Source: Paraflavitalea sp. CAU 1676
Lineage (GTDB): Bacteria; Bacteroidota; Bacteroidia; Chitinophagales; Chitinophagaceae
NCBI RefSeq assembly: GCF_029223285.1
Contig: NZ_JARHUJ010000002.1
Span: forward strand, 124,001 to 188,000
Reading direction: 5' to 3'
Length of the DNA: 64,000 nucleotides
Each line of letters opens with the position of its first letter. The first letter of the stretch is position 1. The translations under genes were made by a program, and so were the position numbers. Of this stretch, positions 12,078-47,286 are shown piece by piece. The notes below the pieces were generated by a model. It saw only the letters and a list, made by a program, of their open reading frames with translations. It did not search any database and was not told the DNA's origin.

Positions 12078-12180
12078 GTGATGATCAGCGTGTTTTGGTG
12101 AAGGGGGTATTGGTCGACTAAAATATAGAAAAGAGTTTGAATTCCCCTCACCCCCAACGCGCTGGCTCGGTTACCTGCAT

Positions 12181-12206
12181 AAAAAAAGCCCTGCCAGCCG
12201 GCAGGA
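12181..12206 (-). terminator. Intrinsic terminator of the CBS-domain gene
   Basis: On the minus strand a 6-bp stem CCTGCC/GGCAGG with a 4-base loop (12190-12205) is followed by seven T residues (12187-12181). Confidence 0.75.
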
Positions 12207-12242
12207 CTTATTGCTCCAGGGGGTAATTGGAGCAAGAATGAT

Positions 12243-12680
12243 TTATCGTGCAGAATGCAGGTAATCTTTCAGTTGCGTGATCGTTTCCTCGTGCGAAAGG
12301 ATGGTTTCCTTAACCACGTCGTTGATCGAAATGATGCCGATCACCTGTTCGCCATCAAAAACTGGCAGGTAGCGGATGTTCTTGTCGCTCATCAGCTGCA
12401 TACAGTAATCGATAGAGTCGGCCGACGTAACACGCGGAAAATCATTCGACATGATCTCCGAAATCGGGGTATCGGTAGAGTTCTTTCCTTTCAGAACGAT
12501 CTTGCGGGAATAGTCGCGCTCGGTCATGATGCCCAGGTAGCGCCCGTCTTCCATGACCATTACCGATCCGATGTTTTGATCGGCCATGATTTTCAACGCC
12601 TCCAGTACGGAAATGTTAGGTTGTACGGTAGTGATGCTACTGCCTTTTCTGAGTAAGATGTCTGCTACTTTTTTGTTCAT
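12243..12680 (-). CDS. CBS-domain pair protein
   Basis: The protein has 145 residues when started at the ATG at 12680 (MNKKVADILLRKG). The upstream in-frame ATG at 12794 would add 38 residues with no family similarity. Two CBS domains make up the whole protein. Both carry the expected pattern: the first runs through VLEALKIMADQNIGSVMVMEDGR and ends GIMTERDY, and the second runs through CMQLMSDKNIRYLPVFDGE and ends GIISINDVV. Stand-alone CBS pairs bind adenine nucleotides and act as energy or ligand sensors. The partner protein is not identifiable here. The gene is monocistronic with its own terminator. Confidence 0.92.
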   Translation of the reverse strand: MNKKVADILLRKGSSITTVQPNISVLEALKIMADQNIGSVMVMEDGRYLGIMTERDYSRKIVLKGKNSTDTPISEIMSNDFPRVTSADSIDYCMQLMSDKNIRYLPVFDGEQVIGIISINDVVKETILSHEETITQLKDYLHSAR

Positions 12681-12858
12681 ACAGCTTATTGTTTTGGTGA
12701 AGCAATCGGTGACTTCTAATATACGACTATTTGATGATACCGGCTGCGAAAAATCACTGTTTTCGGGGATGCCCATATCCCCAAATCTGTGCAATCTTTC
12801 GGGCTACACAACCAGCCGCCCGGACAGGGCGTAATACTTTCCATAAATCAACATAGCC

Positions 12859-13695
12859 ATGACCATCAAACCGCTCATCTTTCTATTGATCCCCTGCGCG
12901 ATCGCCTGCCGCAAAAACGACTGCCCGCCCGAAACTTCCCCCACACCGCCGCCTGCCAGCGATATCCCGGCCGTAAAGCTCCGGGCCATGAACATCAGCA
13001 GCCTGCCTTCGCCTTACTATCAGTTCAGTTACAACGATTCCGGCTATATCACGCAGCTCAACCATGCCTCCGGACTTGCCTTTTACGATATTACCTATGC
13101 GAACAGGAAGATCCATAAAATATTCGCCAATAAAGACGTTCAGGCCGATATCAACAAAGATGTGCTGGAATACGAATACAGCCAGGGGCTGCCCGTTACC
13201 ATCAGGGTCCTCGATAAGCAAAACAAACTGTACCGCATATGCCGGTTGCAATATGGCAGCGAAAACCGGCTGCAAAAACTAACCTGGGAAGTTGACCCCG
13301 GTACAGGCATGGCGACCGAGCAAACGCTCACCCCGAGCTATTATGAAGATGGTAATTTGAAAGAGATCGTTTATCGCCAATTCGCCGTGCCGCCCTCTGT
13401 CGAATATGAATATGTCGAGCATTTTGAGGAGTACGATAACAAAGAGAACCCCGATGGCTTTGCGTTGTTGCATACAACCTTGCATCATCCCGTACTACTG
13501 CCTGCCATCCGGTTGCAGCGTAATAATGCCGCACGAGTATATCGCACGAGTACCAACTCCCTCACCTTCGATGCTCGTTATTCCTTTACCTATGATGCAC
13601 AAAACAGACCACTGTCGCGGATAGGCCCTGTTAGCTGGAGGGCAGCAGACGGCACTACGGGTCAATACCAATCTACCACCACTTTTACGTATTGA
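12859..13695 (+). CDS. Putative lipoprotein with YD/RHS-like beta-strand repeats
   Basis: The protein has 278 residues. The N-terminus (MTIKPLIFLLIPCAIACRKND) is a lipoprotein signal with a plausible lipobox Cys at residue 17. The mature part is rich in Tyr-containing strands such as YQFSYNDSGYITQLNH, VLEYEYSQGLPVTIR and YSFTYDAQNRPLSR. These resemble the YD-repeat pattern of RHS-type and DUF4595-like lipoproteins common in Bacteroidota. No catalytic motif is visible and no function is proposed. It is convergent with the next gene. Confidence 0.75.
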   Translation: MTIKPLIFLLIPCAIACRKNDCPPETSPTPPPASDIPAVKLRAMNISSLPSPYYQFSYNDSGYITQLNHASGLAFYDITYANRKIHKIFANKDVQADINKDVLEYEYSQGLPVTIRVLDKQNKLYRICRLQYGSENRLQKLTWEVDPGTGMATEQTLTPSYYEDGNLKEIVYRQFAVPPSVEYEYVEHFEEYDNKENPDGFALLHTTLHHPVLLPAIRLQRNNAARVYRTSTNSLTFDARYSFTYDAQNRPLSRIGPVSWRAADGTTGQYQSTTTFTY

Positions 13696-29755: not shown

Positions 29756-30661
29756 TTATCGAGCTTTCGAAAAAGCGACCAATGCTTCCGCGCCCTTCAG
29801 CAACTGTACATTGCCGGGAATGCCGCGCGAAAAGTAGGTGCCATTACGCGAACCGGAGAAGATGATCTCCTTTTGGGGAAACAGCTTCGAGAGGTGATGC
29901 AGGTAATCGCTGAGGTCGCATCGGATGAGATTGGTGATGAGGTGGAAATAGACCTGGGTGATGGGGCGGTCGGGATGTTCCGTTTCGTAGTGTGCGCAGA
30001 TGGTGTGGAGCTCCTCCGTTTTTACATTACTCCCAAGGTATAAATAGGGGATGCCGTTCTTGCGAAGCATGTATTGCATGAACAGCAGGGGAATCTCATG
30101 CAGCTCCCCGTAGGGTGTATACAATACCACACGTCTTTTACTGGAAGGAGTGGGACGGTCAAGGCGGTCGATGGCCGTCAGCATCTTGCGGATGATGATG
30201 GCGCTGGAAAAATGTTCCTGGGCGGGCATCACGTTGCCGGCCAGCCACAAATGCCCGATACGGCGCAACAGGGGAAACACCACCTCCATAACTGCCTTTT
30301 CAAAGCCCGTTTGCAATACGAGGTTATCCAGCGACGCCTCGAACCGGTCCGTGGCAAGGTCGATCGTGGCTTCTGTTAACTGATTGATGAAAATTTCGTA
30401 GTTCTCCTTGTCGGGCCGCAGGTCGAGGGCCAGGCGGGAAATATCGTCCTCCGATAAACTGGCTATCCGGGATATTTTGTAGCCGTGATGGTACAAAAAA
30501 GCTACCCTTAGTATCTGTTTCAGGTCTTCACTGTCGTAAAGCCGGTGGTTGCTGTGCTTACGCCTGGGCCGTAGAATACTGTGCCGCTGTTCCCAGATCC
30601 GGAGCGTATGTGCTTTAATACCAGTCAGATTTTGGACATCGCGTATGGAAAAAAAGTTCAT
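29756..30661 (-). CDS. MerR-family regulator with B12-binding-like C-terminus (CarH-like)
   Basis: The protein has 302 residues from the ATG at 30661 (MNFFSIRDVQNLTG). The first about 75 residues are a MerR winged helix (KAHTLRIWEQRHSILRPRR, then NHRLYDSEDLKQILRV). A four-helix B12-binding-2-like domain follows. It has the Trp-x9-Glu-His pattern (LWLAGNVMPAQEH) that caps adenosylcobalamin in CarH light sensors. The last about 110 residues resemble the Rossmann-like B12-binding domain. The usual Asp-x-His-x-x-Gly becomes Glu-Leu-His-Glu-Ile-Pro, so the axial His is kept while two flanking residues differ. Homologues control carotenoid or light-stress genes, but none lie in this window. Confidence 0.85.
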   Translation of the reverse strand: MNFFSIRDVQNLTGIKAHTLRIWEQRHSILRPRRKHSNHRLYDSEDLKQILRVAFLYHHGYKISRIASLSEDDISRLALDLRPDKENYEIFINQLTEATIDLATDRFEASLDNLVLQTGFEKAVMEVVFPLLRRIGHLWLAGNVMPAQEHFSSAIIIRKMLTAIDRLDRPTPSSKRRVVLYTPYGELHEIPLLFMQYMLRKNGIPYLYLGSNVKTEELHTICAHYETEHPDRPITQVYFHLITNLIRCDLSDYLHHLSKLFPQKEIIFSGSRNGTYFSRGIPGNVQLLKGAEALVAFSKAR

Positions 30662-30784
30662 ATTACTGTAACAAAACGAAAGATATGCCAACTAATACTA
30701 CTGTTCAAATCCTGTTTAAGGGAGGGGAAGCGCATTCCCCATGCCCGTGCACAATATATTGGTAAAATCCTGGTTAATACCCCG

Positions 30785-33159: not shown

Positions 33160-35715
33160 ATGGGGAGACTCCTTTTATTGGTATGTTCATTGTTGCTGGC
33201 TAACATCGTATGCGCCCAATCGCACGGCTTACGGTTTTCGAGCCATGAGGTAGTGCCTGAAAAAAGGACTTCGCTCAACCTGACCCCCGATGAACCGCTG
33301 TGCCTGGGCCAAACGACCGACATCAGCTTCGAGCTTTCCTTCACGCCCCACCTGGAAACCTATTTCGGCTATATCCTGCGGCTGGTTACCAACAATAACC
33401 AGAACATCGACATCGTCTACAACCAAAAGCTGCGGCGCTTCAATGCCGTGATCGGTGAAACGGTCTCCGGCGAATTTGAGATCGACTCCGTACAACTGTA
33501 CAGTCAGTGGAGCAAGTTGAAGCTCACACTCAACCCTGCCAGCCAGGAAGTGAGTTTCTTCCTCAATCAACGGCCCATCGGTAAAGGCAAGGCCAATATT
33601 TCATCTTCTACCTGTTACCAGATCATATTCGGCACCAACGATTATCCCGGGTTCAAGATCACCGACATTCCGCCGATGAACATCCGGGATATCCGAATCA
33701 GCGAAGGCAATAAGGGCATTGCTTATTTCCCATTATCGGAAAGTAGCGGACCCGTTGCCCTCGATTCCGTGAAGCAAAGAAAAGCGACGGTGAGCAATGC
33801 CGGCTGGATCAAACCCCGCCACCAGAACTGGGTGCAGGCTGCTGCCATTACCACCAAAGGATCGGCCAGCGTGGCGTTTGATAAAAAGAACGAGCGACTG
33901 TTCATCGTTGCCAAAGATTCCCTGTACCAGTATTCCTTCCGCAACGGTCAGTTATCGGGTGTATTGCTGGCAACACGGCGCGATACGTTGTCACCGGGTA
34001 GTCAGTCGGTGTACGACGATAAGAATGGCGTGCTGTACAACATTAATATCGACGAGAAGCTGGTAAGCGCCTATCAGCCCCAGGCCAATCGCTGGAGCCA
34101 GGAGTTTACGGCTGGTCCCCTCACCATTTACTGGCAGGCGAACAAATTCATATCACCCGCCGATAGTGCGCTATATATAATAGGAGGGTATGGCCAATTG
34201 CAATACCGCAATGACGTGCAGCGGTACAGCTTTGCCACCAGGGAATGGGAAACCATCGATGTAAAGGGCGATTTTCTGATGCCCCGTTACCTGGCCGCCC
34301 TGGGTACCAGCGAGGCCTGTGATACGGCCTGGTTGATCGGCGGGTTTGGCAGCAAGACCGGCGATCAAACCATCAACCCGCGGCATACTTACGACCTGCT
34401 TTCTTTTGATGTAAAGACCCGCTCCTTCAAAAGTCTTTTTTCCCTGAAAGAACCAGCGCGGCCCTTTTGTTTTGCCAACAGCCTCGTTATCGATGGCGCG
34501 GCGCGGCAATATTACGCGCTCATACACCCGATCGATCGTTTCAACTCGGCCCTGCAGCTCATGAAAGGTTCATTGCAGTCGCCGGAGTATGAACTGATGG
34601 CTGATAGCATTCCCTATGCCTTTCATGACATAGAATCATTTGCCGACCTGTACTATTGTGCAGCCAGCAAAAAACTGGTGGCCGTTACCCTGTTCACCGA
34701 TAAGAATAATGTGAGCAGCGTAAAAATATATACGCTCGATTTCCCTCCCAATAAACTGGCGGTAGTTGAACCACCAAAAGCTGCCGCTTCCAATGACTGG
34801 ATCTGGTTCCTGGTAGCTGGCGGCCTGGTAGCCGGTGGTGTGCTGTTGATGATGTGGCGGAGAAGACAACTGCGTCAGGCACAACAAGCCAAAATGTATA
34901 CACCACCACCAGCTGTTGCATCGGCGGTGGCTGTTGGGCAGTCAGATGCCGTGGCTGGTATTGCACAGGAGCCGGCCATGCAGAAAGAGGCCGCTGCCAT
35001 TTACCTCTTTGGCCCCTTCGAAGTATTCGACAAGGAAGGCAATGATATCACGAAACTGTTCACCCCGCTGTTGCGCGAACTGTTCCTGTTGATACTGACC
35101 TATACCGTCAAGGATGGCAAAGGCATTGCCTCCGAAAAACTGTACGAAACGCTGTGGGGCGATAAACCCCTGAAAGATGCGCGGAACAATTTTTCAGTGA
35201 ACGTGGTAAAGCTGAAGGGCATCCTCGAAAAAGTAGGGGAGTGCCATATCGGTAAAGAGTCGGGCAAATGGAAATTCGACGTGCTGCACAATTCCATCCG
35301 GGTCGATTACCAGCATTACAGCGACCTTGTTTCGAATGCCGGCAGCAGCACCAGCAAAGCCCTCGCGCAGGAATTGGTACAGGTGGCCGGTCGGGGCGCC
35401 TTCCTGGGTACCATGCATTACAGCTGGCTCGATGACATCAAATCGGAAGTATCCGGCAAAACCACCGATATACTCTTAAACTATATCTCCCGCGCCGATC
35501 TGAACACCGAGGCGGAATTCATCATCCGGGCGGCCAACTGCATTTTCATCTTCGATCAGCTGAACGAAGATGCCCTGGCCTGGAAATGTAAAGGCCTCAT
35601 ACTCCTGGGGCGGCACGGTATGGCCAAAGATGCTTACCTCAAGTTTGCCAAGGAGTACCGGGAGAACTATGGGCAGGAGTTCGATCAATCATTCGCCGAC
35701 GTTACAGGCCAATGA
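33160..35715 (+). CDS. Membrane-tethered SARP-like transcriptional regulator with LamG and beta-propeller sensor region
   Basis: The protein has 851 residues from the ATG at 33160 (a TTG two codons earlier is possible). A signal peptide (MGRLLLLVCSLLLANIVCAQ) is followed by a LamG-like jelly-roll at about 30-210. A kelch/galactose-oxidase-like propeller follows at about 220-540 (YIIGGYGQLQYRNDVQRYS, AWLIGGFGSKTGD). One transmembrane helix lies at about 547-566 and ends in RRRQ, which places the C-terminus in the cytoplasm. There a winged helix at about 612-715 (IYLFGPFEVFDKEG, LYETLWGDKPLKDARNNFSV) resembles the SARP/OmpR type. A helical BTAD-like region at about 720-850 (LNEDALAWKCKGLILLGRHG) completes it. 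The likely role is sensing a ligand outside and controlling transcription of the PUL that follows. This domain order is read by eye. Confidence 0.8.
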   Translation: MGRLLLLVCSLLLANIVCAQSHGLRFSSHEVVPEKRTSLNLTPDEPLCLGQTTDISFELSFTPHLETYFGYILRLVTNNNQNIDIVYNQKLRRFNAVIGETVSGEFEIDSVQLYSQWSKLKLTLNPASQEVSFFLNQRPIGKGKANISSSTCYQIIFGTNDYPGFKITDIPPMNIRDIRISEGNKGIAYFPLSESSGPVALDSVKQRKATVSNAGWIKPRHQNWVQAAAITTKGSASVAFDKKNERLFIVAKDSLYQYSFRNGQLSGVLLATRRDTLSPGSQSVYDDKNGVLYNINIDEKLVSAYQPQANRWSQEFTAGPLTIYWQANKFISPADSALYIIGGYGQLQYRNDVQRYSFATREWETIDVKGDFLMPRYLAALGTSEACDTAWLIGGFGSKTGDQTINPRHTYDLLSFDVKTRSFKSLFSLKEPARPFCFANSLVIDGAARQYYALIHPIDRFNSALQLMKGSLQSPEYELMADSIPYAFHDIESFADLYYCAASKKLVAVTLFTDKNNVSSVKIYTLDFPPNKLAVVEPPKAAASNDWIWFLVAGGLVAGGVLLMMWRRRQLRQAQQAKMYTPPPAVASAVAVGQSDAVAGIAQEPAMQKEAAAIYLFGPFEVFDKEGNDITKLFTPLLRELFLLILTYTVKDGKGIASEKLYETLWGDKPLKDARNNFSVNVVKLKGILEKVGECHIGKESGKWKFDVLHNSIRVDYQHYSDLVSNAGSSTSKALAQELVQVAGRGAFLGTMHYSWLDDIKSEVSGKTTDILLNYISRADLNTEAEFIIRAANCIFIFDQLNEDALAWKCKGLILLGRHGMAKDAYLKFAKEYRENYGQEFDQSFADVTGQ

Positions 35716-35782: not shown

Positions 35783-35830
35783 ATTAATTTCCCAATTAAT
35801 GCTTTTGTTAATGCCCTTATTAGCATCCCA
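35783..35830. repeat. Four 12-bp direct repeats upstream of GH92 (candidate operator array A)
   Basis: The units are ATTAATTTCCCA, ATTAATGCTTTT, GTTAATGCCCTT and ATTAGCATCCCA, starting at 35783, 35795, 35807 and 35819, an exact 12-base period. The array ends 47 bases before the GH92 start codon. The same motif recurs before susC at 41138-41184. Shared placement within one PUL suggests regulator binding sites; this is an inference. Confidence 0.75.
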
Positions 35831-35877
35831 CGGCTTTATTGCAGGAAGAAATTTCAACGAAACTGATTGCCTGCGAT

Positions 35878-38133
35878 ATGAAAAAGACCCTGCTCATTGT
35901 AGTGCTTATATGCAACGTAACTGTTCTGATGGCCCGTCAGCCGGCCAAAGCTGCTTTCATCAATCCCGACAGGTCCGTACTCGGATTTCTCGACCCCACC
36001 ATCGGTAACGTGGGTCAATTGCTCGAACCTACCCGGCCCACCATCCAGCTGCCCAATCAAATGATCCGGGTAGCGCCTCAAAGAAAGGATTATCTCGATA
36101 ACCAGATATCCAGCTTCCCCCTCAATATCGTATCGCACCGCCTGGGACAGGTATTTTCCATCAAACCATCGGTAAAGCCGGTAGCCCGCGAAAGCTGGCA
36201 GGCCCGCATGACCTACGACCACGACCTCGAAGTCAATAACCCCTGGCATTATGCTACCTGGCTCATCGATGATGAGGTGGGAGTAGAGTTTACCCCAGGC
36301 CGCAAAGCCGGCGTTTATCGCTTCCGTTTTCCGGCATCGGCCCATAAAGCGCTGCTCTTCGATGTGTACAATGGCGACGAAGCACAATACAATTTCCCCT
36401 CAGCTACCGAGATCACCGGATACGAGACCTGGCATGGCGACGTAAAGGTTTACCTGTATGGCGTTTTCTCCGTGGCGGGCAAGCCGGGTGTGCTGGTTGA
36501 TGGTCAGGTGCAAAACACCAACACCATTACCGGCCGCGGGGTGAAGGCATTCCTGAGTTTTCCAACCACAACCGGTGAAGTGGAACTGCGCTATGCGATC
36601 AGTTATGTGAGTGCCGATCAGGCGAAAAAGAATTATGAGCAGGAGTTGAAAGGAAAGTCGTTTGCCGCCATAGCCGATAACGGAAAAAGGATATGGGAAG
36701 AAACGCTGACACAGATAAAAGTGGAGGGCGGTACCGAAGCCCAGAAGCGTTCTTTCTACACGGCCTTGTACCGTTGTTACGAAAGAATGGTCGATGTATC
36801 GGAGAATGATCAATACTACAGCGGCTACAATAAACAGATCAATAAAGACAAACGTCCTTTTTATGTGGATGACTGGGCCTGGGATACTTACCTGGCGCAT
36901 CATCCCCTGCGCATGATCCTCCATCCGAAGCAGGAGGAAGACATGCTGCAATCGTACGTGCGTATGTACGAGCAAAGCGGCTGGATGCCCACCTTCCCGG
37001 TGCTCTTCGGCGACCATGCCTGCATGAACGGATTTCATTCATCGGTAGTGGTGCTCGATGCCTGGCGCAAGGGACTGCGCAACTTCGATATACAAAAAGC
37101 CTATGAGGGAATGCGTAAGAATGCGACCGATGCAACCATCATTCCCTGGCGCAATGGTCCTAAAACAGCACTCGACGATTTCTACCACAGTAAAGGATAC
37201 TTCCCGGCCCTGGCTCCTGGCGATAAAGAAACGGAAGCTCTCGTCGATAAGTTTGAAAAACGGCAGGCGGTAGCGGTTACCCTCGGTACCAGCTACGACG
37301 ACTGGGCGCTTGCACAGCTGGCGAAAGACCTCAATAAGCAGGACGACTACCAACGCTTCTCTGCCCGCGGCCTCAATTATAAAAACCTGTGGCATCCCGA
37401 AAAGAAGTTCTTCCTGCCCAAAGATGATAAGGGCAACTGGATCAACATCGACCTCAAGTTCGATGGCGGTCCCGGCGGCCGGGATTATTACGATGAGAAC
37501 AATGGCTGGACCTACCTGTGGCAGGTGCAGCAGGATATACCCGGCCTGATCGACCTCATGGGCGGTAAGCAGGTATTTGAGAACAGGCTCGATCAATTGT
37601 ACCGCGAAGGCCTTGGCCGTGGCAAACATGAGTTCTGGAATAAGTTTCCCGATGCTACCGGCCTGGTAGGACAGTTCTCCATGGGCAACGAACCCAGCTT
37701 CCATATTCCCTACCTGTACAACTTCACGGGCTCACCGTGGAAAACACAAAAGACCACGCGCTTCCTCCTGGATGTATGGTTTCGCGATAACGTGTTCGGC
37801 ATTCCGGGCGATGAAGATGGTGGTGGCATGACAGCGTTTGTGGTATTCTCCTCGATGGGCTTTTATCCTGTAACACCTGGTTTACCGGTGTATACTATCG
37901 GCAGTCCGCTCTTCAGTAAAGTCACGATCGATCTGCAAAACGGTAAGCAATTCCGCCTCACGGCCAACAATTGTTCCGTAGTCAACAAATACATCCAAAG
38001 CGCGAAGATGAATGGCGTGGTGCTCAATACGCCCTGGTTTACCCATGATCAATTGATGAGTGGCGGACACCTGGAACTGGAGATGGGCCCCAAGCCCAAC
38101 AAGAGCTGGGGCACCGGAAGCGCGGGGTTTTAG
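35878..38133 (+). CDS. Exo-alpha-mannosidase, glycoside hydrolase family 92
   Basis: The protein has 751 residues. GH92 enzymes are calcium-dependent inverting exo-alpha-mannosidases acting on N-glycans or fungal mannan. The start ATG at 35878 gives a signal peptide (MKKTLLIVVLICNVTVLMARQ); the frame runs 13 codons further upstream through part of the spacer. The N-terminal beta-sandwich opens with the characteristic DPTIGNVGQL. The catalytic barrel shows FYTALYRCYERM, the DDWAWDTYLAHHPL block, GNEPSFHIPYLYNF and the acidic GIPGDEDGGGMTAF segment that holds catalytic and calcium-binding residues. It opens the enzyme part of the PUL and is preceded by the 12-bp array. Linkage specificity cannot be told from sequence alone. 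Confidence 0.95.
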   Translation: MKKTLLIVVLICNVTVLMARQPAKAAFINPDRSVLGFLDPTIGNVGQLLEPTRPTIQLPNQMIRVAPQRKDYLDNQISSFPLNIVSHRLGQVFSIKPSVKPVARESWQARMTYDHDLEVNNPWHYATWLIDDEVGVEFTPGRKAGVYRFRFPASAHKALLFDVYNGDEAQYNFPSATEITGYETWHGDVKVYLYGVFSVAGKPGVLVDGQVQNTNTITGRGVKAFLSFPTTTGEVELRYAISYVSADQAKKNYEQELKGKSFAAIADNGKRIWEETLTQIKVEGGTEAQKRSFYTALYRCYERMVDVSENDQYYSGYNKQINKDKRPFYVDDWAWDTYLAHHPLRMILHPKQEEDMLQSYVRMYEQSGWMPTFPVLFGDHACMNGFHSSVVVLDAWRKGLRNFDIQKAYEGMRKNATDATIIPWRNGPKTALDDFYHSKGYFPALAPGDKETEALVDKFEKRQAVAVTLGTSYDDWALAQLAKDLNKQDDYQRFSARGLNYKNLWHPEKKFFLPKDDKGNWINIDLKFDGGPGGRDYYDENNGWTYLWQVQQDIPGLIDLMGGKQVFENRLDQLYREGLGRGKHEFWNKFPDATGLVGQFSMGNEPSFHIPYLYNFTGSPWKTQKTTRFLLDVWFRDNVFGIPGDEDGGGMTAFVVFSSMGFYPVTPGLPVYTIGSPLFSKVTIDLQNGKQFRLTANNCSVVNKYIQSAKMNGVVLNTPWFTHDQLMSGGHLELEMGPKPNKSWGTGSAGF

Positions 38134-38342: not shown

Positions 38343-39677
38343 ATGAGAATATTACCAGGGCTTATTATGATGCCTGCTTTATGCGTCGTCCTTTGCTGTT
38401 CAAAGAAGGGAGGCAACAACCCGGCACCGCCCGATCCTCCTGAACCACCGCCGGTAAAGGAAGTGGTGTACGATGAAACCGGTTGCCTGTACACTTCTTA
38501 TGATAAGCTCGTCATGGCAGGCTATCAGGGATGGTTTGCCGCCCAGGGCGATGCATCGGAAAGGGGCTGGTACCATTACCAGAATGGCAATTGTGGTGGT
38601 TTCCTGCCAGGTTGCTCGTCCGTCGATTTCTGGCCCGATATCTCCGAGTACACGAAGAAATACAAATCGCCTTTCCAGTTTGCGAATGGTACCGATGCAT
38701 ATCTGTATAGTCCGTACGATGAAGAAAGTGTCGATCTGCATTTCAAGTGGATGAAGGACTACGGTATTGACGGCGTATTTATGCAGCGTTTCGTTGGAGA
38801 GATAAAGCCTGACAATGTGAAGGGCAAGCGGCATTTCAACAAGGTATTGGAGAATGCCCTGAAAGCGGCGAAGAAATATAGTCGCGCCATTTGCGTGATG
38901 TATGACCTCAGCGGTTGCTCGCCCGAAGATGTGGCCTATCTCGAACAGGACTGGAACGAATTACAATCGCTCTTCGCGCTGTTCGATAACAAGCAGAACC
39001 CTACCTACCTGCGGCACAATAAAAAGCCACTGGTGGTGATCTGGGGTGTAGGGTTTAATGATAACCGGAAATACACGACAAGTGATGTCGACAAACTGGT
39101 TGACAAGATCAAGGGGCCAACGAAGAAAGTGTCGGTTATGCTCGGAGTGCCTTATTACTGGCGCTCGCTGAAGAATGACACGGATCCTTCCGCCGCTTTG
39201 CATACGCTCATCAAAAAATGCGATATCGTATTGCCGTGGGCGGTGGGCCGCTATGGTAATGACAATTACAATAATGTGGCGGGCCTCGAACTGATTGGCG
39301 ATATGCAATGGTGCGCAACCAATAATATCACGTATGTGCCGCTGGTGTTTCCGGGATTCAGCTGGGGCAACCTGAAAATGGATGCCACTCAATACAATTC
39401 GATACCGCGGTACAAAGGAGACTTCCTGTGGAAGCAGGTGGCAGGGGCGAAGAACCAGGGGGCTCAAAGTTTGTACGTGGCCATGTTCGACGAGATCGAC
39501 GAAGGGACGGCCATCTATAAATGCGCCAGGGAATCTGAACTACCGTTGCATGGCAGTCGCAAATTCGTTGGCATCGAGAACGAAGTCGCCTCCGATTATT
39601 ACCTATGGCTTACCGGAGAAGCCGGTAAATGGTTTCATGGCGCAGCAGGTTATACTGCTACCAAACCTATACGATAA
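38343..39677 (+). CDS. Glycoside hydrolase family 71/99-like lipoprotein (first of a tandem pair)
   Basis: The protein has 444 residues. The N-terminus is a lipoprotein signal (MRILPGLIMMPALCVVLCCSKKG) followed by a Pro-rich linker, so it should be tethered to a membrane surface. The (beta/alpha)8-type body has the blocks AGYQGWFAAQGD, DLHFKWMKDYGIDGVFMQRF and VFPGFSWGN. The FDEIDEGTA segment matches the Glu-x-x-Glu-Gly-Thr arrangement that carries the two catalytic Glu residues in GH99 endo-alpha-mannosidases. The 209-base gap after GH92 contains no recognisable promoter. A role in alpha-mannoside cleavage is inferred from family and neighbours. Confidence 0.85.
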   Translation: MRILPGLIMMPALCVVLCCSKKGGNNPAPPDPPEPPPVKEVVYDETGCLYTSYDKLVMAGYQGWFAAQGDASERGWYHYQNGNCGGFLPGCSSVDFWPDISEYTKKYKSPFQFANGTDAYLYSPYDEESVDLHFKWMKDYGIDGVFMQRFVGEIKPDNVKGKRHFNKVLENALKAAKKYSRAICVMYDLSGCSPEDVAYLEQDWNELQSLFALFDNKQNPTYLRHNKKPLVVIWGVGFNDNRKYTTSDVDKLVDKIKGPTKKVSVMLGVPYYWRSLKNDTDPSAALHTLIKKCDIVLPWAVGRYGNDNYNNVAGLELIGDMQWCATNNITYVPLVFPGFSWGNLKMDATQYNSIPRYKGDFLWKQVAGAKNQGAQSLYVAMFDEIDEGTAIYKCARESELPLHGSRKFVGIENEVASDYYLWLTGEAGKWFHGAAGYTATKPIR

Positions 39678-39792
39678 ACATTTTCCATAATGCAAGTGAA
39701 CATTCCAACCCCGGTATGTTTCTACATGCCGGGCTTGAATGTTACCCTACAGGCATCGATTGCCGGGAACTCACAACAACTCAACACCAAAA

Positions 39793-41067
39793 ATGAAAAC
39801 AAACGTATTGATCTCGCTAACCGTGTGCCTGTTCATGTGCGTTGGATTGCAGGCGCAGTCAAAGCACAGTAAGGAAACGAAGTACCCCAGTTACAAAGGA
39901 TTGGTGATGGCCGGTTACCAGGGATGGTTCCGGGCGCAGGGCGACGGCACCAACGCCCGGCGTTTTGCCTATGGCAGCGAAGAACGTACAGGCATCGATA
40001 TGTGGCCCGATGTAGCTGAATACGCAAAGACCTATGAAACACCCTGGAAACTGGCCGACGGTAAGCCCGCCCGTTTTTTTAGCAGTCACGATAAAAGTGC
40101 GGTCGATCTGCATTTCAAATGGATGCAACAATATGGAGTAGACGGCGTATTCATGCAACGCTTTTTCGGCAATGCGAAAGGGCGGGATAGTGCCTCCTCC
40201 ACTATTCTGAAAAATGCCTTCGAAGCGGCATCCAGGTACGGCCGGGCCATTGCGGTGATGTATGACCTTTCCGGGCTGCGTGGTTCCAATGAAGACTGCA
40301 GCGCTTTGATTGAAGACTGGAAGTTCCTGGTCAACCAGTTAAAAGTAACCAACCAGCCGGGTGCGAAAACCTATTTGCAGCACAATGGCAAGCCGGTAGT
40401 GGCCATTTGGGGCGTGGGATTTCCCGACCGGCCCTATAATATCCGGAATATCGGGCTGGAGAAACTGATCGACTTTTTGAAGAACGATCCGGAGTATGGT
40501 GGTTGTGCCATTATGCTCGGCGTGCCGGCATTCTTTCGCACGTTGAATGCCGATTGTTTACCCGATCCTTACTTGCACACACTGATCAAACAATGCGAAC
40601 TGGTATTGCCGTGGAATGTACAGCGATACAGTCCGTTGCTGCATAATGATATGGACCGTTTCCGCGACAATACGATCGCCGACCTGGAATGGTGCCACGA
40701 AAACAAAGTGGAATATGTACCCTGTGTATATCCAGGATTCAGCTGGCATAACCTGAGCAAGTATGAATTCCCCGACGACGTGAAGCCGGTGGCTTCGATT
40801 CCCCGGCAGGGTGGCCGGTTTTACTGGCAGCAGATCACTACCGCCATCAACGCTGGCGCATCAATGCTCTATGTGGCCATGTTCGACGAGGTAAACGAAG
40901 CGACGGCGATCTTTAAGGTAACGGACGCACCGCCGGTTAGTACAGTAACCTCCTTTGTTGGCAATGACGGAAAGCCATCGGATCATTATTTATGGCTTAC
41001 CGGGGAAGCAGCAAAGATGCTGCGCAATGAAAAGCCGCTCAGCTTGAAAATGCCGGAGCGGAAATAG
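39793..41067 (+). CDS. Glycoside hydrolase family 71/99-like secreted protein (second of the pair)
   Basis: The protein has 424 residues from the ATG at 39793, which gives a signal peptide (MKTNVLISLTVCLFMCVGLQAQ) without a lipobox. It is a clear paralogue of the preceding gene: AGYQGWFRAQGD, DLHFKWMQQYGVDGVFMQRF and VYPGFSWHN align directly. The catalytic segment reads FDEVNEATA, keeping both Glu residues but with Ala for Gly. The pair thus differs in anchoring (soluble periplasmic versus lipoprotein) and in residues near the active site, which suggests division of labour on one glycan. It lies 115 bases after its paralogue. Confidence 0.85.
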   Translation: MKTNVLISLTVCLFMCVGLQAQSKHSKETKYPSYKGLVMAGYQGWFRAQGDGTNARRFAYGSEERTGIDMWPDVAEYAKTYETPWKLADGKPARFFSSHDKSAVDLHFKWMQQYGVDGVFMQRFFGNAKGRDSASSTILKNAFEAASRYGRAIAVMYDLSGLRGSNEDCSALIEDWKFLVNQLKVTNQPGAKTYLQHNGKPVVAIWGVGFPDRPYNIRNIGLEKLIDFLKNDPEYGGCAIMLGVPAFFRTLNADCLPDPYLHTLIKQCELVLPWNVQRYSPLLHNDMDRFRDNTIADLEWCHENKVEYVPCVYPGFSWHNLSKYEFPDDVKPVASIPRQGGRFYWQQITTAINAGASMLYVAMFDEVNEATAIFKVTDAPPVSTVTSFVGNDGKPSDHYLWLTGEAAKMLRNEKPLSLKMPERK

Positions 41068-41137: not shown

Positions 41138-41184
41138 ATTAATGCCCCAATTAGAAGAATCTTAATGCCCTGATTAATCCCCTG
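41138..41184. repeat. Four direct repeats upstream of susC (candidate operator array B)
   Basis: The TTAAT or TTAG cores start at 41139, 41151, 41162 and 41174, with spacings of 12, 11 and 12 bases. The units are ATTAATGCCCCA, ATTAGAAGAATC, TTAATGCCCTG and ATTAATCCCCTG. They match array A at 35783-35830 in motif, copy number and spacing, although the surrounding sequence is unrelated. Confidence 0.75.
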
Positions 41185-41236
41185 CGGGTATTTTCAACAT
41201 TCGATTCTTTTAACCCTTTTGCTTTGATTTGAACCA

Positions 41237-41265: not shown

Positions 41266-41411
41266 AACAATTCTAAAACTAACGAACATGCTGCCGGAAA
41301 AGAAATTTGCGCGCTGCTTTCATCCTCCTTGAGCGCCATCATTCCACCTTGTCAATAATCTCCTTGTTTAAACTTGCAATTTTCAACGATGATCTTGCAA
41401 AAAATACACAT

Positions 41412-44400
41412 ATGAATAAAATAAACTACCTGCTTTTGATGATTTTCTTAATCCCCGTGAGTCTATTCGCACAATCGACCCAGGTTCGTGGTGTGGTAAA
41501 GGACTCCGCTTCCGGAAGCCCGCTGAACGGCGTTTCTGTTCAGCTGAGGAGCGCCAAGGGGAAGCTTGCTGAGACGATCACCAATATCAATGGAGAATAC
41601 CAACTCCAGTCAACAACAACTGCTACCAGGATCATTTTTACCCACATGGGTATGGCTACTATTGATGAAAAAATCGATGGCAGAACCGAAATCAGTGTTA
41701 TTCTGGCGCCCACTCCACTGAATCTTGGAGACGTGGTGGTGGTAGGTTATACCTCCCAGAAAAAAGAAACGCTCACCGGTGCGGTATCGGCCATTAAGGG
41801 ATCTGAAATGGTTCGCACCAGAACGGAGAACACGCTGAATACCCTGACAGGTAAAGTACCTGGGGTGCGTGTTGTTCAGAAGAGCTCCCGGCCCGGTTCC
41901 TACGACGCAACGATCGATATTCGTGGCATGGGGGCGGGCAATCCGCCGGTGCCACCACTATTTGTCATTGATGGGATCGTTCGCGATAAAGATTACTTCG
42001 CCCGTATGAGCCCCGAAGAAATTGAGAGCGTTTCTGTACTGAAAGATGGATCAGCTGCCGTGTATGGCCTGCGTGCCGGCAATGGCGTTATCCTGGTTAC
42101 CACTAAAACCGGTAAATCGCAAGCTGGCAAAGTGGATATTATTTTCAACTCCAGCTTTTCAAACCAGCAATACCTGTATGTTCCGGAAGGGGTGAATACA
42201 CAAGACTATATGACCCTGAGGAATGAACAGAACTGGCAGGATTTCGGAGGAAATTACCTGGTGCGTCGGAATCCAATTTTTACTGATGAGCAAATGTCTC
42301 CTTATAAGAACGGAACCAAACAGTCGTACTACTGGATGGACGAAGTGTTCAGGAAAAATACGCCTCAATATAACACCAGTCTGAGCGTAAGTGGTGGTAA
42401 TGAAAAGATACGCTACTACTTTAACCTGGATTATACAAAACAGGAAGGTTCTTATAAAAGCGGTGATCTGAAATCGGAGCGATGGGCCCTGCGCAGCAAC
42501 CTCGATGCCCAGATCACAAAAGGACTGAAAGCAAGGGTTCAAATTGGAACGATATTGACGACCACGCAACAACCCAATGGTTCGGGTTGGTCAACTTATA
42601 AGGCTGCCTGGCTGATGCGTCCGGATGCACCTTTTTATGCCAACGATAATCCGGCCTACCCCAATGGCGACAATAATTTACTGTATGATGGCAACAACAT
42701 GATCGTACAAACCAATGCCGATTACGTTGGGTTAAACACCGACAGGGACAAGAGATACAATGGAACCCTGCGACTGGAATATGAGATACCCGGCATCAAA
42801 GGCTTGTCGGCAAAAGGGTTGTTCGATTACTCCATGCGCCTTCCCGATTACAATAATTACCACCGGGCTTTTAATTTATTCCGCTTTAATCCAAACGATA
42901 GCACCTATTCCACGGTACCAAGGTCTGTACCTTCCACGATAGAAAAGGGCACCAGTACGATCTATGAAAGAACCATGCAGGCTGGTTTATACTATGTTAA
43001 TTCTTTCAGCAGGCATAATGTCACCAGCTTCCTTACGTATGAGCAAACCTATAATCAATTCGATGGCTTTAGCGCTTTCCGCGAGATCATGGTTGAATCT
43101 CAATACCTGTTTGCAGGGGAGGACAATCGTCAGCGTGCCAACGGGCAAACTCCTTCGGACCGTGCCAGCAAGTCTTTGATAGGATCAGTAACGTATGACT
43201 TTGGCCGAAAATACCTGGTAGATTTTAAGTTCCGCTATGATGGATCTTCCCGTTTCCCCGATGGCAAGCGTTTTGGATTCTTCCCGGCAGTATCGGCTGG
43301 CTGGCGCTTGAGCGAAGAACGATTTATCAAGAATAATGTTGAATTCCTGTCAGAATTGAAGTTGCGAGGTTCTTATGGAGAAATGGGTGATGACGGTTCT
43401 GCGGGCAACTATCCGCCAACACCAGGATATAACCTTACTCCCAATGAAAGGGGTTGGTATTTTGGCAATCCACCCGTGTTGAATGGTGGTGTTACTCCTT
43501 CTGCCATTCCGAATCCCAACCTGACCTGGTATAAAATAAAGAGTTACAATGCCGGTATTGATTTTGGTGTCCTGGATAATAAGATTACCGGCACCATTGA
43601 AGTGTACAGAAGAGACCGTTCCGGATTACTGGCAACAAGTGCTGCCGTTGTTCCGGGAACAGTTGGTGCCAACTTACCCCAGGAAAACCTCAACAGCGAC
43701 CGGAACTTTGGTTATGAAATATCTGCAGCTTATAAAAACAAATACAGGGGCCTGTCTTATTATGTATCTGGTCAGATCTCTGCTACCAAGTACATGCGGA
43801 CCGATTGGCTTGAATCAACAGCCAGCAATTCTTACGACAAATGGAGGAACCGCACAGCCAACCGCTACCAGAATATCTGGTGGGGCAATGAGTCGGGTGG
43901 CATGTTCTCCTCTTTGAATGAGATCCGGAACTTCAGTCTCCCCATGGGGCAGGGTGCATTGCCTGGTGACTGGTACCTGACCGACTGGAATGGTGATGGT
44001 GTGGTGGATGGAAATGACGACCATCCGATCGCTACCAATGGTCTTCCTGTATTTAACTACGGAATTTCAATTGGCGGCTCCTGGAAGAATTTTGATTTTG
44101 CGATGGATTGGCAGGGTGCGCATGGTGTTTATGTGCAATATGGTGAAGTACTTGTTGAGGCATTGCCTTTTGGCGGACAAAATACCTTGTCATGGTTTAT
44201 GGACCGCTGGCGTCCGGAAGATCCGAAAGCCGATTATTTCAGTCCGAACACCAAATGGATTTCCGGCTACTATCCGGCAACAGGCCACGACGGGCGTAGA
44301 GCTGGCACCAACGGTGTTATGAACGCATCCTATATACGTTTGAAAACGGCGGAAATTGGCTATACGTTCAGTAGCAGAATGCTTGCGACAACCGGCGTAA

Positions 44401-44570
44401 AAGAACTCAGGTTCTTCGTGAGCGGGTATAACCTGTTGACCTTTACACCGCTTAGAAATGTAGATCCTGAGCGTCCTGGTGCTGCCGGCGGTGCTTCCAC
44501 CAATTACATCGACTTTTATAATGACCCCATTACCAGAACCTTTACAGGCGGACTGAAACTTAAATTCTAA
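41412..44570 (+). CDS. SusC/RagA-family TonB-dependent outer-membrane glycan transporter
   Basis: The protein has 1052 residues from the ATG at 41412 (signal peptide MNKINYLLLMIFLIPVSLFAQ). A carboxypeptidase-regulatory-like domain at about 22-100 (VRGVVKDSASGSPLNGVSVQL) precedes the plug domain at about 110-230. The plug has the family signature VVVVGYTSQKKETLTGAV and IESVSVLKDGSAAVYG. The rest is the 22-strand barrel ending in a TFTGGLKLKF C-terminal strand. It imports oligosaccharides captured by the SusD partner, powered by TonB. The long leader and array B upstream mark it as the start of the transport operon; SusD follows after 22 bases. Confidence 0.96.
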   Translation: MNKINYLLLMIFLIPVSLFAQSTQVRGVVKDSASGSPLNGVSVQLRSAKGKLAETITNINGEYQLQSTTTATRIIFTHMGMATIDEKIDGRTEISVILAPTPLNLGDVVVVGYTSQKKETLTGAVSAIKGSEMVRTRTENTLNTLTGKVPGVRVVQKSSRPGSYDATIDIRGMGAGNPPVPPLFVIDGIVRDKDYFARMSPEEIESVSVLKDGSAAVYGLRAGNGVILVTTKTGKSQAGKVDIIFNSSFSNQQYLYVPEGVNTQDYMTLRNEQNWQDFGGNYLVRRNPIFTDEQMSPYKNGTKQSYYWMDEVFRKNTPQYNTSLSVSGGNEKIRYYFNLDYTKQEGSYKSGDLKSERWALRSNLDAQITKGLKARVQIGTILTTTQQPNGSGWSTYKAAWLMRPDAPFYANDNPAYPNGDNNLLYDGNNMIVQTNADYVGLNTDRDKRYNGTLRLEYEIPGIKGLSAKGLFDYSMRLPDYNNYHRAFNLFRFNPNDSTYSTVPRSVPSTIEKGTSTIYERTMQAGLYYVNSFSRHNVTSFLTYEQTYNQFDGFSAFREIMVESQYLFAGEDNRQRANGQTPSDRASKSLIGSVTYDFGRKYLVDFKFRYDGSSRFPDGKRFGFFPAVSAGWRLSEERFIKNNVEFLSELKLRGSYGEMGDDGSAGNYPPTPGYNLTPNERGWYFGNPPVLNGGVTPSAIPNPNLTWYKIKSYNAGIDFGVLDNKITGTIEVYRRDRSGLLATSAAVVPGTVGANLPQENLNSDRNFGYEISAAYKNKYRGLSYYVSGQISATKYMRTDWLESTASNSYDKWRNRTANRYQNIWWGNESGGMFSSLNEIRNFSLPMGQGALPGDWYLTDWNGDGVVDGNDDHPIATNGLPVFNYGISIGGSWKNFDFAMDWQGAHGVYVQYGEVLVEALPFGGQNTLSWFMDRWRPEDPKADYFSPNTKWISGYYPATGHDGRRAGTNGVMNASYIRLKTAEIGYTFSSRMLATTGVKELRFFVSGYNLLTFTPLRNVDPERPGAAGGASTNYIDFYNDPITRTFTGGLKLKF

Positions 44571-44592: not shown

Positions 44593-46536
44593 ATGAAAAG
44601 ATATATTTTATTATATACGGTGCTTTTGGCAATGGTCTTTTCTGCCTGTCAAAAGTTGGACCTTGAGCCTAAAGGCATACTGGGTCAACCAGAACTCTTT
44701 GGTAATGAGTTTGGCGTAAAGAAATATTTTACCGGTATTTACAACAACCTGCCCATTGAAGACTTCAACTATTACGGGAATAACAACCCGAGCGGGGGCA
44801 ACGCATTCCGGCCGGATAACTATTGGGAAGCGGGCAAGAATAGCCAGGGAAACTGCAGTGGTGAGTTCTTTAATACCTGGCAGGGCGTTAACAATGGCGG
44901 TTTTGGCTACTGGCCCTACGACCGCATCCGCGACGTGAACATCTTTATTCAGGATTTTCCTACCTATAAAAGCAAGTTTTCGGATGCCGCATACAATGCT
45001 TTGATGGGTGAAGCGTATTTCCTGCGCGCCTTCTTTTATTTTGGAATGGCCAAGCGGTATGGTGGCGTTCCCATCGTTAAAACCGTACAGAACCCCCTGT
45101 CTCCAAAGGATTCACTGGAAGTTCCCCGCAATACGGAGTACGATACCTGGAAATTTATCTATACCGACCTGAAATTTGCGATAGACAATATGCCGGCAAC
45201 CAGCGAGTATGGACGTGCCAATAAATTTGTAGCGGCTGCGCTCATGTCAAGGGCCATGGTGTATGCGGGTTCCATTGCAAAATACACCACGTACATGAAC
45301 TATGGTTCGGAGAAGGCGTACACGGCCGGATTGGCGGGTATCGATCCGGGCAAAGCCAATGAGTTTTTCCAATACGCTGTGAATGCCGGTAAACTGATAG
45401 AAACCGGCTCTTATTCCCTGTACACGAAGAACTATCCTGATAAGGCATTGAACTTTGCCAACCTTTTCTTAGATGCAAGCTCTACCGAAAACATATTTGT
45501 GAAGGATTTTGATCAGACGGCTCCACACAATACGCGTCTGCGTCACACGTATGATGCCCTGATGGCCCCTCAGCCTGATATGTCCTCCTTTGTAGGTGCT
45601 GAGAGTTATCCTCCTTTCGACTTTATGGAGTTGTATGAAATGCCGGCCTACACGAATCCTGATGGCACACCGGTTCGGTTTACCAACAGGAGCGATATCA
45701 AGATCGATATGGAGCCGCGCATGAAGGGTACCATGTATTTTGATGGCGACTTGCTGAGAGGTAAAGCATTCAGTATTCAAAAGGGAATCTATCGTAATTA
45801 TACCGGAACGGCAGCCGATGCACAACGCGGTAGCAATGGAGCGCCTATCAACAGCGGCGGTAACCGGATACTGGGTGGAAGAGGTTGGACTACCGTCATC
45901 AACGGGGTGACCTTGAATATCACGGGAGCGCATGGCCATTTCGATGATCAGGGTGGAGAGAACAACGGCTGGGGTGCGGCATTCGTGCGTAAGTACGTGA
46001 ACCCGGCTCCGACGCCTGCTGAAGTATCTGTTTATACCAGCGGCACAGCCTGGATCGTATTCCGTTTGGGTGAGGTTTACCTGAATACTGCAGAAGCCCT
46101 GTATGAACTGGGCCAAAGAAATGAGGCGTTCGACTATATCGAAAAATTGCGCGTTCGTGCAGGATGTAAGGTGCCCCGGCCAGCTATCGATGCGGCAACA
46201 ACCAATATAGGCACGATCAACAAAGCGAACTATCCGTATCAGATCGAAAAGTCTTTGCAGTTTATCCGCGATGAACGTGAGCGTGAACTGTACGGAGAAA
46301 ATCATTGGTGGTGGGATCTTCGCAGGTGGAGGGTCGCAGACCAGGTGTTGAACCAGTTCCGTCCCAGGGTACTTAGCTGCTATTATGTGGCCAGTGAAGG
46401 AAAGTATATCTACCTGGATGAAACGAACAGGATCAACAGGACATGGTCCGCCAATAAGGCTTGTTTTTACGAACCAATCCCTGGGGGTGAAATTCAAAAG
46501 AACAGCAAGCTGTTGCCAAACAATCCCTTGTATTAA
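44593..46536 (+). CDS. SusD/RagB-family glycan-binding lipoprotein
   Basis: The protein has 647 residues. A lipoprotein signal (MKRYILLYTVLLAMVFSAC) places it on the outer-membrane surface, where it caps the SusC barrel. The SusD fold is shown by the TPR-like helices around ALMGEAYFLRAFFYFGMAKRYGG and KFVAAALMSRAMVYAGS. The C-terminal RagB block ends in RDERERELYGENHWWWDLRRW. It is larger than the classic 550-residue SusD, with insertions in the ligand-binding half. Its ligand is probably the mannose-containing glycan implied by the GH92 and GH99-like genes. It is translated from the susC operon. Confidence 0.95.
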   Translation: MKRYILLYTVLLAMVFSACQKLDLEPKGILGQPELFGNEFGVKKYFTGIYNNLPIEDFNYYGNNNPSGGNAFRPDNYWEAGKNSQGNCSGEFFNTWQGVNNGGFGYWPYDRIRDVNIFIQDFPTYKSKFSDAAYNALMGEAYFLRAFFYFGMAKRYGGVPIVKTVQNPLSPKDSLEVPRNTEYDTWKFIYTDLKFAIDNMPATSEYGRANKFVAAALMSRAMVYAGSIAKYTTYMNYGSEKAYTAGLAGIDPGKANEFFQYAVNAGKLIETGSYSLYTKNYPDKALNFANLFLDASSTENIFVKDFDQTAPHNTRLRHTYDALMAPQPDMSSFVGAESYPPFDFMELYEMPAYTNPDGTPVRFTNRSDIKIDMEPRMKGTMYFDGDLLRGKAFSIQKGIYRNYTGTAADAQRGSNGAPINSGGNRILGGRGWTTVINGVTLNITGAHGHFDDQGGENNGWGAAFVRKYVNPAPTPAEVSVYTSGTAWIVFRLGEVYLNTAEALYELGQRNEAFDYIEKLRVRAGCKVPRPAIDAATTNIGTINKANYPYQIEKSLQFIRDERERELYGENHWWWDLRRWRVADQVLNQFRPRVLSCYYVASEGKYIYLDETNRINRTWSANKACFYEPIPGGEIQKNSKLLPNNPLY

Positions 46537-46554
46537 CCAATTATCATTACAATC

Positions 46555-47286
46555 ATGAAGAAGACAACTTATATAATCTTAGGGATGACGATGCTGATGT
46601 TTTCATCCTGCTATAAGAAAGACAACTGGTCAGAGCCTGACGCACGGGTGTATGGAAATATCATTGATTCCTACACCAAGAAGCCGCTGCTGACTTCTCA
46701 GAATGATTGGTCTATCCGTATCTGGGAAAGGTCCTGGAAGGAGTCGACCCCCATTAATCAAAACATCCCGGTTAAACAGGATGGTTCCTATAACAACAAC
46801 AAGTTGTTTGCGGGCTCTTATGATATGCTTCCCGTGGGCGGAGCTTTCTGGCCATTCGTGGATACGGCGAAGGGTGTAACATACACCAAGGGAGGCGCTC
46901 AGCAGGATTTCACCGTGACTCCCTATTTGCAGGTAGTTGATCTCACGGCAACAGTAACGGGAACGAACCTCACGTTGACATGCCGCATCAAAGCGCCGAA
47001 ACGCACGGGGCTCCCCAATCTGGTAGAAGTTAAACCTTTCATTAGCTTAACTTCATTTGTTGGTGAATCCAATTACATCAATATCGCCGAGTATAACGAC
47101 AAAAGGATCCAGATCAATAAATCATGGGTCGATGAGAACGGCGATGTTGAAACGAGCAAGCTGTATACGATCGGACCATTGCCGGTTAAATCTGGTTATA
47201 CTTATAACGTACGCGTGGGCGCCAACGTTAATGATACGTATAAAAAGTATAACTATTCAGAGATCAAGCAGGTTATTGTGCCGTAA
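46555..47286 (+). CDS. DUF3823-family surface lipoprotein of the PUL
   Basis: The protein has 243 residues with a lipoprotein signal (MKKTTYIILGMTMLMFSSC). The N-terminal domain opens DNWSEPDARVYGNIIDSYTKKPLLTSQNDW, which matches the DUF3823 pattern of a carboxypeptidase-regulatory-like beta-sandwich. A second beta domain starts near 125 (VDLTATVTGTNLTLTCRIKAP). DUF3823 proteins occur almost only next to SusD genes and are thought to act as surface glycan-binding proteins. The gene starts 18 bases after susD and belongs to the same operon. Confidence 0.88.
   Translation: MKKTTYIILGMTMLMFSSCYKKDNWSEPDARVYGNIIDSYTKKPLLTSQNDWSIRIWERSWKESTPINQNIPVKQDGSYNNNKLFAGSYDMLPVGGAFWPFVDTAKGVTYTKGGAQQDFTVTPYLQVVDLTATVTGTNLTLTCRIKAPKRTGLPNLVEVKPFISLTSFVGESNYINIAEYNDKRIQINKSWVDENGDVETSKLYTIGPLPVKSGYTYNVRVGANVNDTYKKYNYSEIKQVIVP

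Follow-up and report, generated by a model that had tools for sequence, protein, structure and literature searches.

Classical Streptomyces antibiotic regulatory proteins (SARPs) are soluble and carry the DNA-binding half at the N-terminus. In the case of ToxR, the DNA-binding part comes first and the sensor comes last. The known regulators of polysaccharide utilization loci (PULs) are outlined in PMC3878776 as SusR-like proteins, hybrid two-component systems and extracytoplasmic function (ECF) systems. According to the same outline, SusR, the regulator of the sus genes, is a membrane protein with a periplasmic sensor and a cytoplasmic DNA-binding domain, and this domain is described there as having no significant similarity to other factors. 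Here we describe a gene in a 64,000-nucleotide stretch of Paraflavitalea sp. CAU 1676 (contig NZ_JARHUJ010000002.1, positions 124,001–188,000), hereafter the window. The gene (33160–35715 of the window; features of the window lie on the + strand unless stated) encodes a protein of 851 residues, which is very probably a membrane-bound one-component transcription activator with a SARP-type output.

SARP operators are composed of heptamer repeats with spacers of 4–15 nt, classically in 11-bp units, and overlap the –35 element, according to PMC10972967. Operators with three repeats are known (PMC10972967, PMC5930380). As summarized in PMC10936776, AfsR protomers bind side by side on 11-bp repeats and replace the sigma contacts at –35.

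The SARP family (AfsR, PimR and ActII-ORF4, from Actinomycetota) and the window protein share an OmpR-type winged helix followed by a BTAD domain, aligned over 218 columns. Direct repeats about one helical turn apart, commonly three, over the –35 region are also shared, as predicted sites in the present case (outlined for SARPs in PMC10972967, PMC10936776 and PMC5930380). Such repeats of about 11 bp were found in 75 of 80 loci without a test for a promoter box and in 58 with it; these loci are the best 80 of the 362 relatives from the family search, all of them used and numbered with L, and counts of operators and linkage come from related, phylogenetically non-independent loci. The window protein differs from the SARP family in that its DNA-binding half comes at the C-terminus, preceded by a transmembrane helix and a periplasmic sensor, whereas the N-terminal DNA-binding half of a soluble protein is not found. 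The repeats are AT-rich (TTAR, with 12-bp steps besides 11), and the loci are glycan loci instead of antibiotic clusters. Because domain position and membrane anchoring differ, we class the regulator as SARP-like by its output and mechanism and do not count it among the classical SARPs.

SusR-like regulators of Bacteroides are likewise described as membrane-spanning, with a periplasmic sensor and a cytoplasmic DNA-binding domain, whereas the window protein has a kelch sensor, and the SusR family model NF058541 (NCBIfam) gave no match to it at E up to 1. Hybrid two-component systems also regulate PULs from the membrane as single polypeptides and have direct-repeat sites, as outlined in PMC3878776. 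No histidine kinase, receiver or AraC-type domain was found in the window protein by Pfam and NCBIfam scans; the sole response-regulator match was a weak one of VanR on the winged helix. ToxR/CadC-type regulators share the membrane-tied winged helix, the single span and the periplasmic part (outlined in part in PMC11856585), whereas the window protein has the reversed order with the sensor first, an extra BTAD-like domain and a predicted direct-repeat operator.

A sequence-only reading of the gene had taken it for a SARP-like, membrane-tethered, PUL-linked regulator, and this is supported by the comparisons below. The same reading had regarded the design as unusual. Because SusR spans the membrane, the one-protein membrane design is already known for PULs, as far as PMC3878776 outlines it. 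Among the matches listed in a literature search, which covered titles and the beginnings of abstracts and few subscription journals, SARP-type output, kelch sensor and operator were undescribed in a membrane PUL regulator. What is added here to the sequence-only reading is a predicted operator.

Architecture of the regulator

The protein is read as a signal peptide, a possibly LamG-like domain, a kelch propeller, a transmembrane helix, a linker, a winged helix and a BTAD-like domain, according to the open frame, Pfam, hydropathy and profile–profile comparison. The signal-peptide-like segment (residues 1–19, 33160–33216) shows a 19-residue hydropathy of 2.15. Residues 548–566 (34801–34857) show 2.06 and are followed by RRRQLR, and the next-best segment besides the signal peptide shows 1.28. 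Both the signal peptide and the single transmembrane helix, placed by eye at about 547–566, were thus recovered. In 21 of 21 aligned members (the window protein counted), the top-scoring segment in the region 480–650 reaches 1.32–2.66, and 3 to 7 basic residues follow it in 15 of the 21. The helix with its basic C-terminal flank predicts a periplasmic N-terminal half and a cytoplasmic C-terminal half, so that the sensor, previously called extracellular, should lie in the periplasm instead. On hydropathy and charge, the ToxR-type arrangement of a single helix between a cytoplasmic winged helix and a periplasmic domain is found in all 21 members.

The kelch-like propeller (residues 214–535, 33799–34764) was strongly borne out. 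Four Pfam kelch models exceed their cut-offs in the window protein, PF24681 and PF24981 match 28 of 28 members including the window protein at E up to 0.01, and the family profile matches kelch chains in the PDB with E 2e-24. The LamG fold proposed for the preceding domain (residues 20–226, 33217–33837, predicted to be periplasmic) is weakly indicated. Weak Laminin_G_3 matches (E up to 0.1, best 3.7e-4) were obtained for 4 of 26 members; the window protein is without a match at this threshold, and the profile search against the PDB gave no convincing match for the domain. LamG is clearly recognized at residues 413–562 of a Parabacteroides relative (E 4.8e-14), which gives no kelch match at E up to 0.01, so the sensor side of the family looks modular. 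The periplasmic half may bind glycans.

The helix and the DNA-binding domain are connected by a linker of variable length in the family alignment (residues 567–611, 34858–34992). A long and variable linker would suit regulated proteolysis, by which the cytoplasmic half would be freed as a soluble SARP and the protein would be stored in the membrane instead of working there, and a DNA-binding-only frame is present downstream of a member in genome G438 (L179). The linker, however, would equally let a tethered protein reach DNA. We consider proteolytic release possible, though rather improbable.

The predicted output half

The C-terminal half is predicted to contain a SARP/OmpR-type winged-helix DNA-binding domain (residues about 612–715, 34993–35304) and a BTAD-like helical domain (residues about 716–851, 35305–35712), according to profile comparison and weak Pfam matches in relatives. 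A profile of 29 C-terminal halves was compared with an alignment of 8 real SARPs, resulting in a score of 57.4 over 218 columns, colinear through the winged helix and the BTAD domain. As controls, 100 column-shuffled SARP alignments reached 19.1 at most, the reversed alignment scored 13.9, and five unrelated families scored 14.7 to 23.8 against the C-terminal profile. For twelve response regulators of the OmpR type from the own genome, the score was 27.1, over 87 columns only. As the match covers 218 columns and two domains against 87 columns for the OmpR types, the SARP reading rests on the whole unit and not on the winged helix alone. These comparisons point clearly to a SARP-type winged helix with a BTAD-like domain in the C-terminal half, as had been called by eye, and this half aligns with SARPs end to end.

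In the search of the C-terminal profile against PDB sequences, PhoB-type regulators came top (E 0.009). Among NCBIfam models, VanR, a winged-helix regulator, matched 7 of 29 members (best 3e-4), and the SARP model matched 1 of 29 (0.037). For the window protein, Pfam names kelch only, with a weak Tachylectin match in addition. This is what an ordinary kelch surface protein would show if its C-terminus resembled a regulator by chance. However, the colinear 218-column match lies far above the shuffles, and the transmembrane helix and the operator both recur across the family. Chance resemblance is thus extremely improbable, and the SARP-type assignment is retained.

The output half alone was matched in 21 of 395 genomes, whereas matches to the full protein were obtained in 16 of 147 genomes of the family sample and 9 of 345 of the phylum sample, the own genome included. 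The BTAD model has one match in the own genome, on C22 (E 0.0022, above the cut-off only with frame neighbours), and this is not the window gene.

Two stretches with relatives of the output half were observed. In L179 (G438:C1), a distant full-length member at 9848–12454 is followed by a frame of 271 residues (12757–13569), which matches the DNA-binding/BTAD half only and is without a Pfam match. TTAACCC repeats at 12-bp steps separate this frame from the full-length gene, and the short frame is possibly a soluble companion of the full-length regulator. In L133 (13063–15741), a protein from a plasmid record of Parabacteroides distasonis, annotated as LamG-like, shares the output half. Genes for a sugar oxidoreductase and an isomerase adjoin it, and strict 11/12-bp repeats were looked for in this stretch and none were found.

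Predicted operator

When both strands of the window were scanned, three TTAR at 11- or 12-bp steps were detected in two places only, before the GH92 gene and before the SusC gene. None were detected before the regulator gene. The intergenic stretch between the regulator and GH92 reads TTAATTTCCCAA TTAATGCTTTTG TTAATGCCCTTA TTAG, corresponding to four direct repeats at exact 12-bp steps (35784, 35796, 35808 and 35820; predicted operator 1, 35784–35826). The window has one such run of four TTA at 12-bp steps, and none of 100 shuffles produced any. The –7-like promoter box TTTATTGCA (35835–35843), upstream of GH92, is located 15 nt past the start of the last repeat. Predicted operator 2 (41139–41182), before SusC, has repeats at 41139, 41151, 41162 and 41174 (steps 12, 11 and 12), and the –7-like box TATTTTCA (41189–41196), upstream of SusC, is again 15 nt past the start of the last one.

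The repeat arrangement recurs in related loci although the flanking DNA differs. When three TTAR at a fixed step were searched for in the 80 loci, 11 (40 loci) and 12 (22 loci) stood out of the steps 8–24, the other steps giving 0–9. Such sets were present in 1 of 40 (step 11) and 2 of 40 (step 12) random stretches. Intergenic sets were counted in 40 of 80 loci for step 11, 19 for step 12 and 57 for either, compared with a maximum of 7 in 30 shuffles. A single fixed step misses loci because the steps there are mixed. With 11 or 12 allowed at each step, an intergenic set of three is present in 75 of the 80 loci; 2 of 40 random stretches have one, and 100 dinucleotide shuffles gave a mean of 7.1 and a maximum of 15 of 80. 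With a TTG box required at a fixed distance, 58 of 80 loci remain, against 0 of 40 random stretches and a shuffle maximum of 3. Other step pairs gave 4 to 12 of 80 loci, except 10/11 (40), 12/13 (20) and 22/23 (20), which are higher because they overlap or double the true step. An intergenic set is missing in L044, L070, L086, L104 and L120; the set of L044 sits inside a called gene start. The box starts some 15 nt downstream of where the last repeat starts, with little scatter in the 12-bp type (15 rows).

The own genome has one paralogue of the regulator (39% identity), which heads a SusC/GH92 locus. There, an 11-bp set (TTAA, TTAA, TTAT) precedes SusC and is conserved in a relative, and a second set with 11-12 steps is located 76 bp upstream of a frame of 1116 residues. 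Among distant or extra sources, a strict set at 11 or 12 is present in 9 of 15 (one inside a gene) and none in 6 of 15. Locus L228 was left out.

The operator-linked box resembles the Bacteroidota –7 element, given as TAnnTTTG at –12 to –5 in PMC9723704. On this footing, the last repeat would start near –28. The AfsR box is composed of two 11-bp repeats at –40 to –19, and its downstream repeat starts at –29, as summarized in PMC10936776. Three to four TTAR repeats before a –7-like box are likely the operator of the regulator. The repeats stop just ahead of the –7-like box, where binding could also block polymerase, and the protein might be a repressor that covers the –33 region until the ligand arrives. 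AfsR, which has its box at this position, is an activator, however, and its BTAD domains contact polymerase, according to the outline in PMC10936776. Repression is considered unlikely, and activation is the reading followed below.

Two further features of the repeats were noted. The box of the 12-bp operators ends in TTGCA, not TTTG, and is similar to TAnnTTGY, the box of motif SM5; PMC9723704 treats this motif as distinct from the sigma-A motif in Flavobacterium psychrophilum. In 11 of 75 rows for 11 bp and 2 of 15 rows for 12 bp, the repeats are oriented towards the regulator. Autoregulation was not accepted from these rows, because TTAA is its own reverse complement.

Repeat spacing and the regulator tree

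When the spacing types 11-11, 11-12 and 12-12 were mapped onto a quickly built tree of 82 regulators, some of whose branches are long, 7 changes were needed over 73 labelled loci, whereas 300 label shuffles needed at least 25. For 21 Chitinophaga loci, 1 change is needed, against at least 4 in shuffles. The labels leave out 5 unlabelled loci and 2 loci with 12-11 steps, and 10 labels come from strict sets without the box test (L075, L076, L080, L082, L084, L085, L090, L092, L094 and L111). Nine loci with more than one step type were given the commonest type, ties with 12-12 being set to 12-12; L079 was then excluded as 12-11. Five Chitinophaga species each carry a pair of labelled paralogues, of which one is 12-12 and the other 11-12 (L050/L058, L052/L067, L110/L055, L096/L056 and L089/L103). 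In a sixth two-copy genome, that of C. chungangae (L048/L086), the second copy is without a spacing label. As paralogues in one genome differ in step, this argues that the regulator rather than the species sets the repeat step.

The spacing also bears on whether the repeats could belong to another regulator of these PULs, such as a hybrid two-component or ECF system, with the membrane protein acting otherwise, for example as a co-sensor. Motifs of hybrid two-component systems are also described as direct repeats in the outline of PMC3878776. However, the spacing tracks the phylogeny of the membrane protein even between paralogues of the same genome, the step size is that of SARPs, and repeats are present near distant members too, two of them outside PULs (L179 and L181). 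Control by another regulator is therefore regarded as improbable, and the repeats are assigned to the membrane protein as its predicted sites.

Linkage to polysaccharide utilization loci

The gene had been said to head a PUL, and the genes downstream agree with this. A GH92 glycoside hydrolase (35878–38133, with the ATG at 35878 and the frame open from 35839; Glyco_hydro_92, E 5e-156) is followed by two GH71/99-like proteins (38343–39677 and 39739–41067), a SusC/RagA TonB-dependent transporter (41307–44570; TIGR04056, E 1e-226), a SusD/RagB lipoprotein (44593–46536; SusD_RagB, E 2e-40), a DUF3823 protein assigned by Pfam (46555–47286) and a pectate-lyase-like beta-helix protein (47377–50244; Pect-lyase_RHGA_epim, E 9e-19). 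The GH71/99 label is based on one Pfam match of the second protein below the cut-off (Glyco_hydro_99, E 4.4e-5), on the similarity of the first protein, which has no Pfam match of its own, to the second, and on the annotation of a Persicobacter relative. The gene lies beside susC/susD and glycoside hydrolase genes, as is typical of a PUL regulator.

Linkage was counted in the 54 of the 80 loci with at least 9 kb called on each side. The hidden Markov models (HMMs) were seeded with the window genes, built on matches in the loci and run unchanged on the controls, which were 40 random 20-kb stretches from nine regulator-bearing genomes. SusC is near the regulator in 46 of 54 loci (12 of 40 random stretches), SusD in 40 (6 of 40), GH92 in 33 (1 of 40), GH71/99-like genes in 34 (0 of 40) and DUF3823 in 23 (0 of 40). 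At least one of the five is present in 53 of 54 loci against 12 of 40 random stretches. GH95, GH3, GH43 or GDSL genes adjoin the regulator in some other loci (ten proteins scanned). Downstream of a relative with 27% identity on a Persicobacter plasmid lie genes for GH92, a TonB receptor, SusD, DUF3823 and a sorting-domain protein, as well as a GH71/99-like gene.

Proposed mechanism

In the mechanism we propose, a glycan or enzyme product bound by the periplasmic half would join or free the cytoplasmic domains. Several monomers would then occupy adjacent repeats, substituting for a –33 element, and recruit RNA polymerase in the manner of AfsR, so that the GH92 and SusC operons of the own locus would be switched on. 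As no repeats precede the regulator gene in the window, control is probably local and not autoregulatory.

Several results weigh against this account. In the single-sequence Pfam scan, neither Trans_reg_C nor BTAD was matched in the window protein. Of the Pfam families that the sequence-only reading had proposed to check, kelch gave strong matches, and Trans_reg_C, BTAD and Laminin_G_3 gave weak ones in relatives. Trans_reg_C matched in 4 of 29 members (best E 0.0018) and BTAD in 3 of 29 (best 0.0021), and the unrelated DUF4919 was equally good in the C-terminal halves (3 of 29, best 0.0018). The topology is drawn from hydropathy and positive-inside charge, the operator from co-occurrence, and activation instead of repression from the position in the promoter. 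The box is loosely conserved in the 11-bp type (69 rows, reverse readings among them) and 22 of 80 loci lack it at the distance tested; more than one step type occurs in nine loci. The pattern of three repeats plus TTG matches in 91 of 147 family genomes, and the backward control (not totalled) is also frequent; taken by itself, the short operator core lacks genome-wide specificity. Of such matches, 2 of 5 in the own genome and 2 of 3 in G085 are no more than about 16 kb away from the two regulator genes. The anticipated linkage of homologues to PUL genes held for the near loci and for part of the others: 7 of 14 distant or extra loci have SusC, SusD, GH92 or GH71/99-like genes, and 7 of 14 are without PUL genes. 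Ten proteins encoded next to the regulator in five of the latter seven loci include no PUL family, and three of the ten are without any Pfam family.

With these points considered, we presume that a membrane-bound SARP family of Bacteroidota probably forms a further class of PUL regulator. Its kelch domain would read periplasmic glycans, its operator of three to four TTAR at 11/12 bp would drive GH92/GH71-99-type loci, and the spacing would co-evolve in each clade. If this is true, the deep members outside PULs would re-use the same output module for other signals. A nameable regulator family is thereby offered for GH92/GH71-99-type loci, together with a predicted operator at exact coordinates in two promoters and a rule by which the repeat step follows the regulator clade. 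An output of the SARP type, which in Actinomycetota serves antibiotic control, would be placed in apparent membrane-bound nutrient sensing of another phylum.

Other observations on the loci

In Chitinophaga silvatica (L055, 12653–17139), the genes between the regulator and SusC encode a GDSL/TPR protein, an SxtJ-like protein and a carbamoyltransferase. Judged by size and order, matching genes are present in L056, L058, L059, L060, L067 and L103. The repeats precede this type of block, and in L056, L058, L059, L067 and L103 they are found again near SusC.

L083 and L104 (labelled Williamsia) and L060 (labelled Beijerinckiaceae) group with Chitinophagaceae loci despite their Actinomycetota or Pseudomonadota titles, and these contigs are probably misbinned or mislabelled. 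The regulator is present as two open frames in L044 (a Segetibacter bin) and L031 (G273), which may be read as a broken gene, an assembly error or a real split. On the – strand of the window, 29756–30691 encodes what we take by eye to be a MerR-type regulator with a cobalamin-binding-like C-terminal part.

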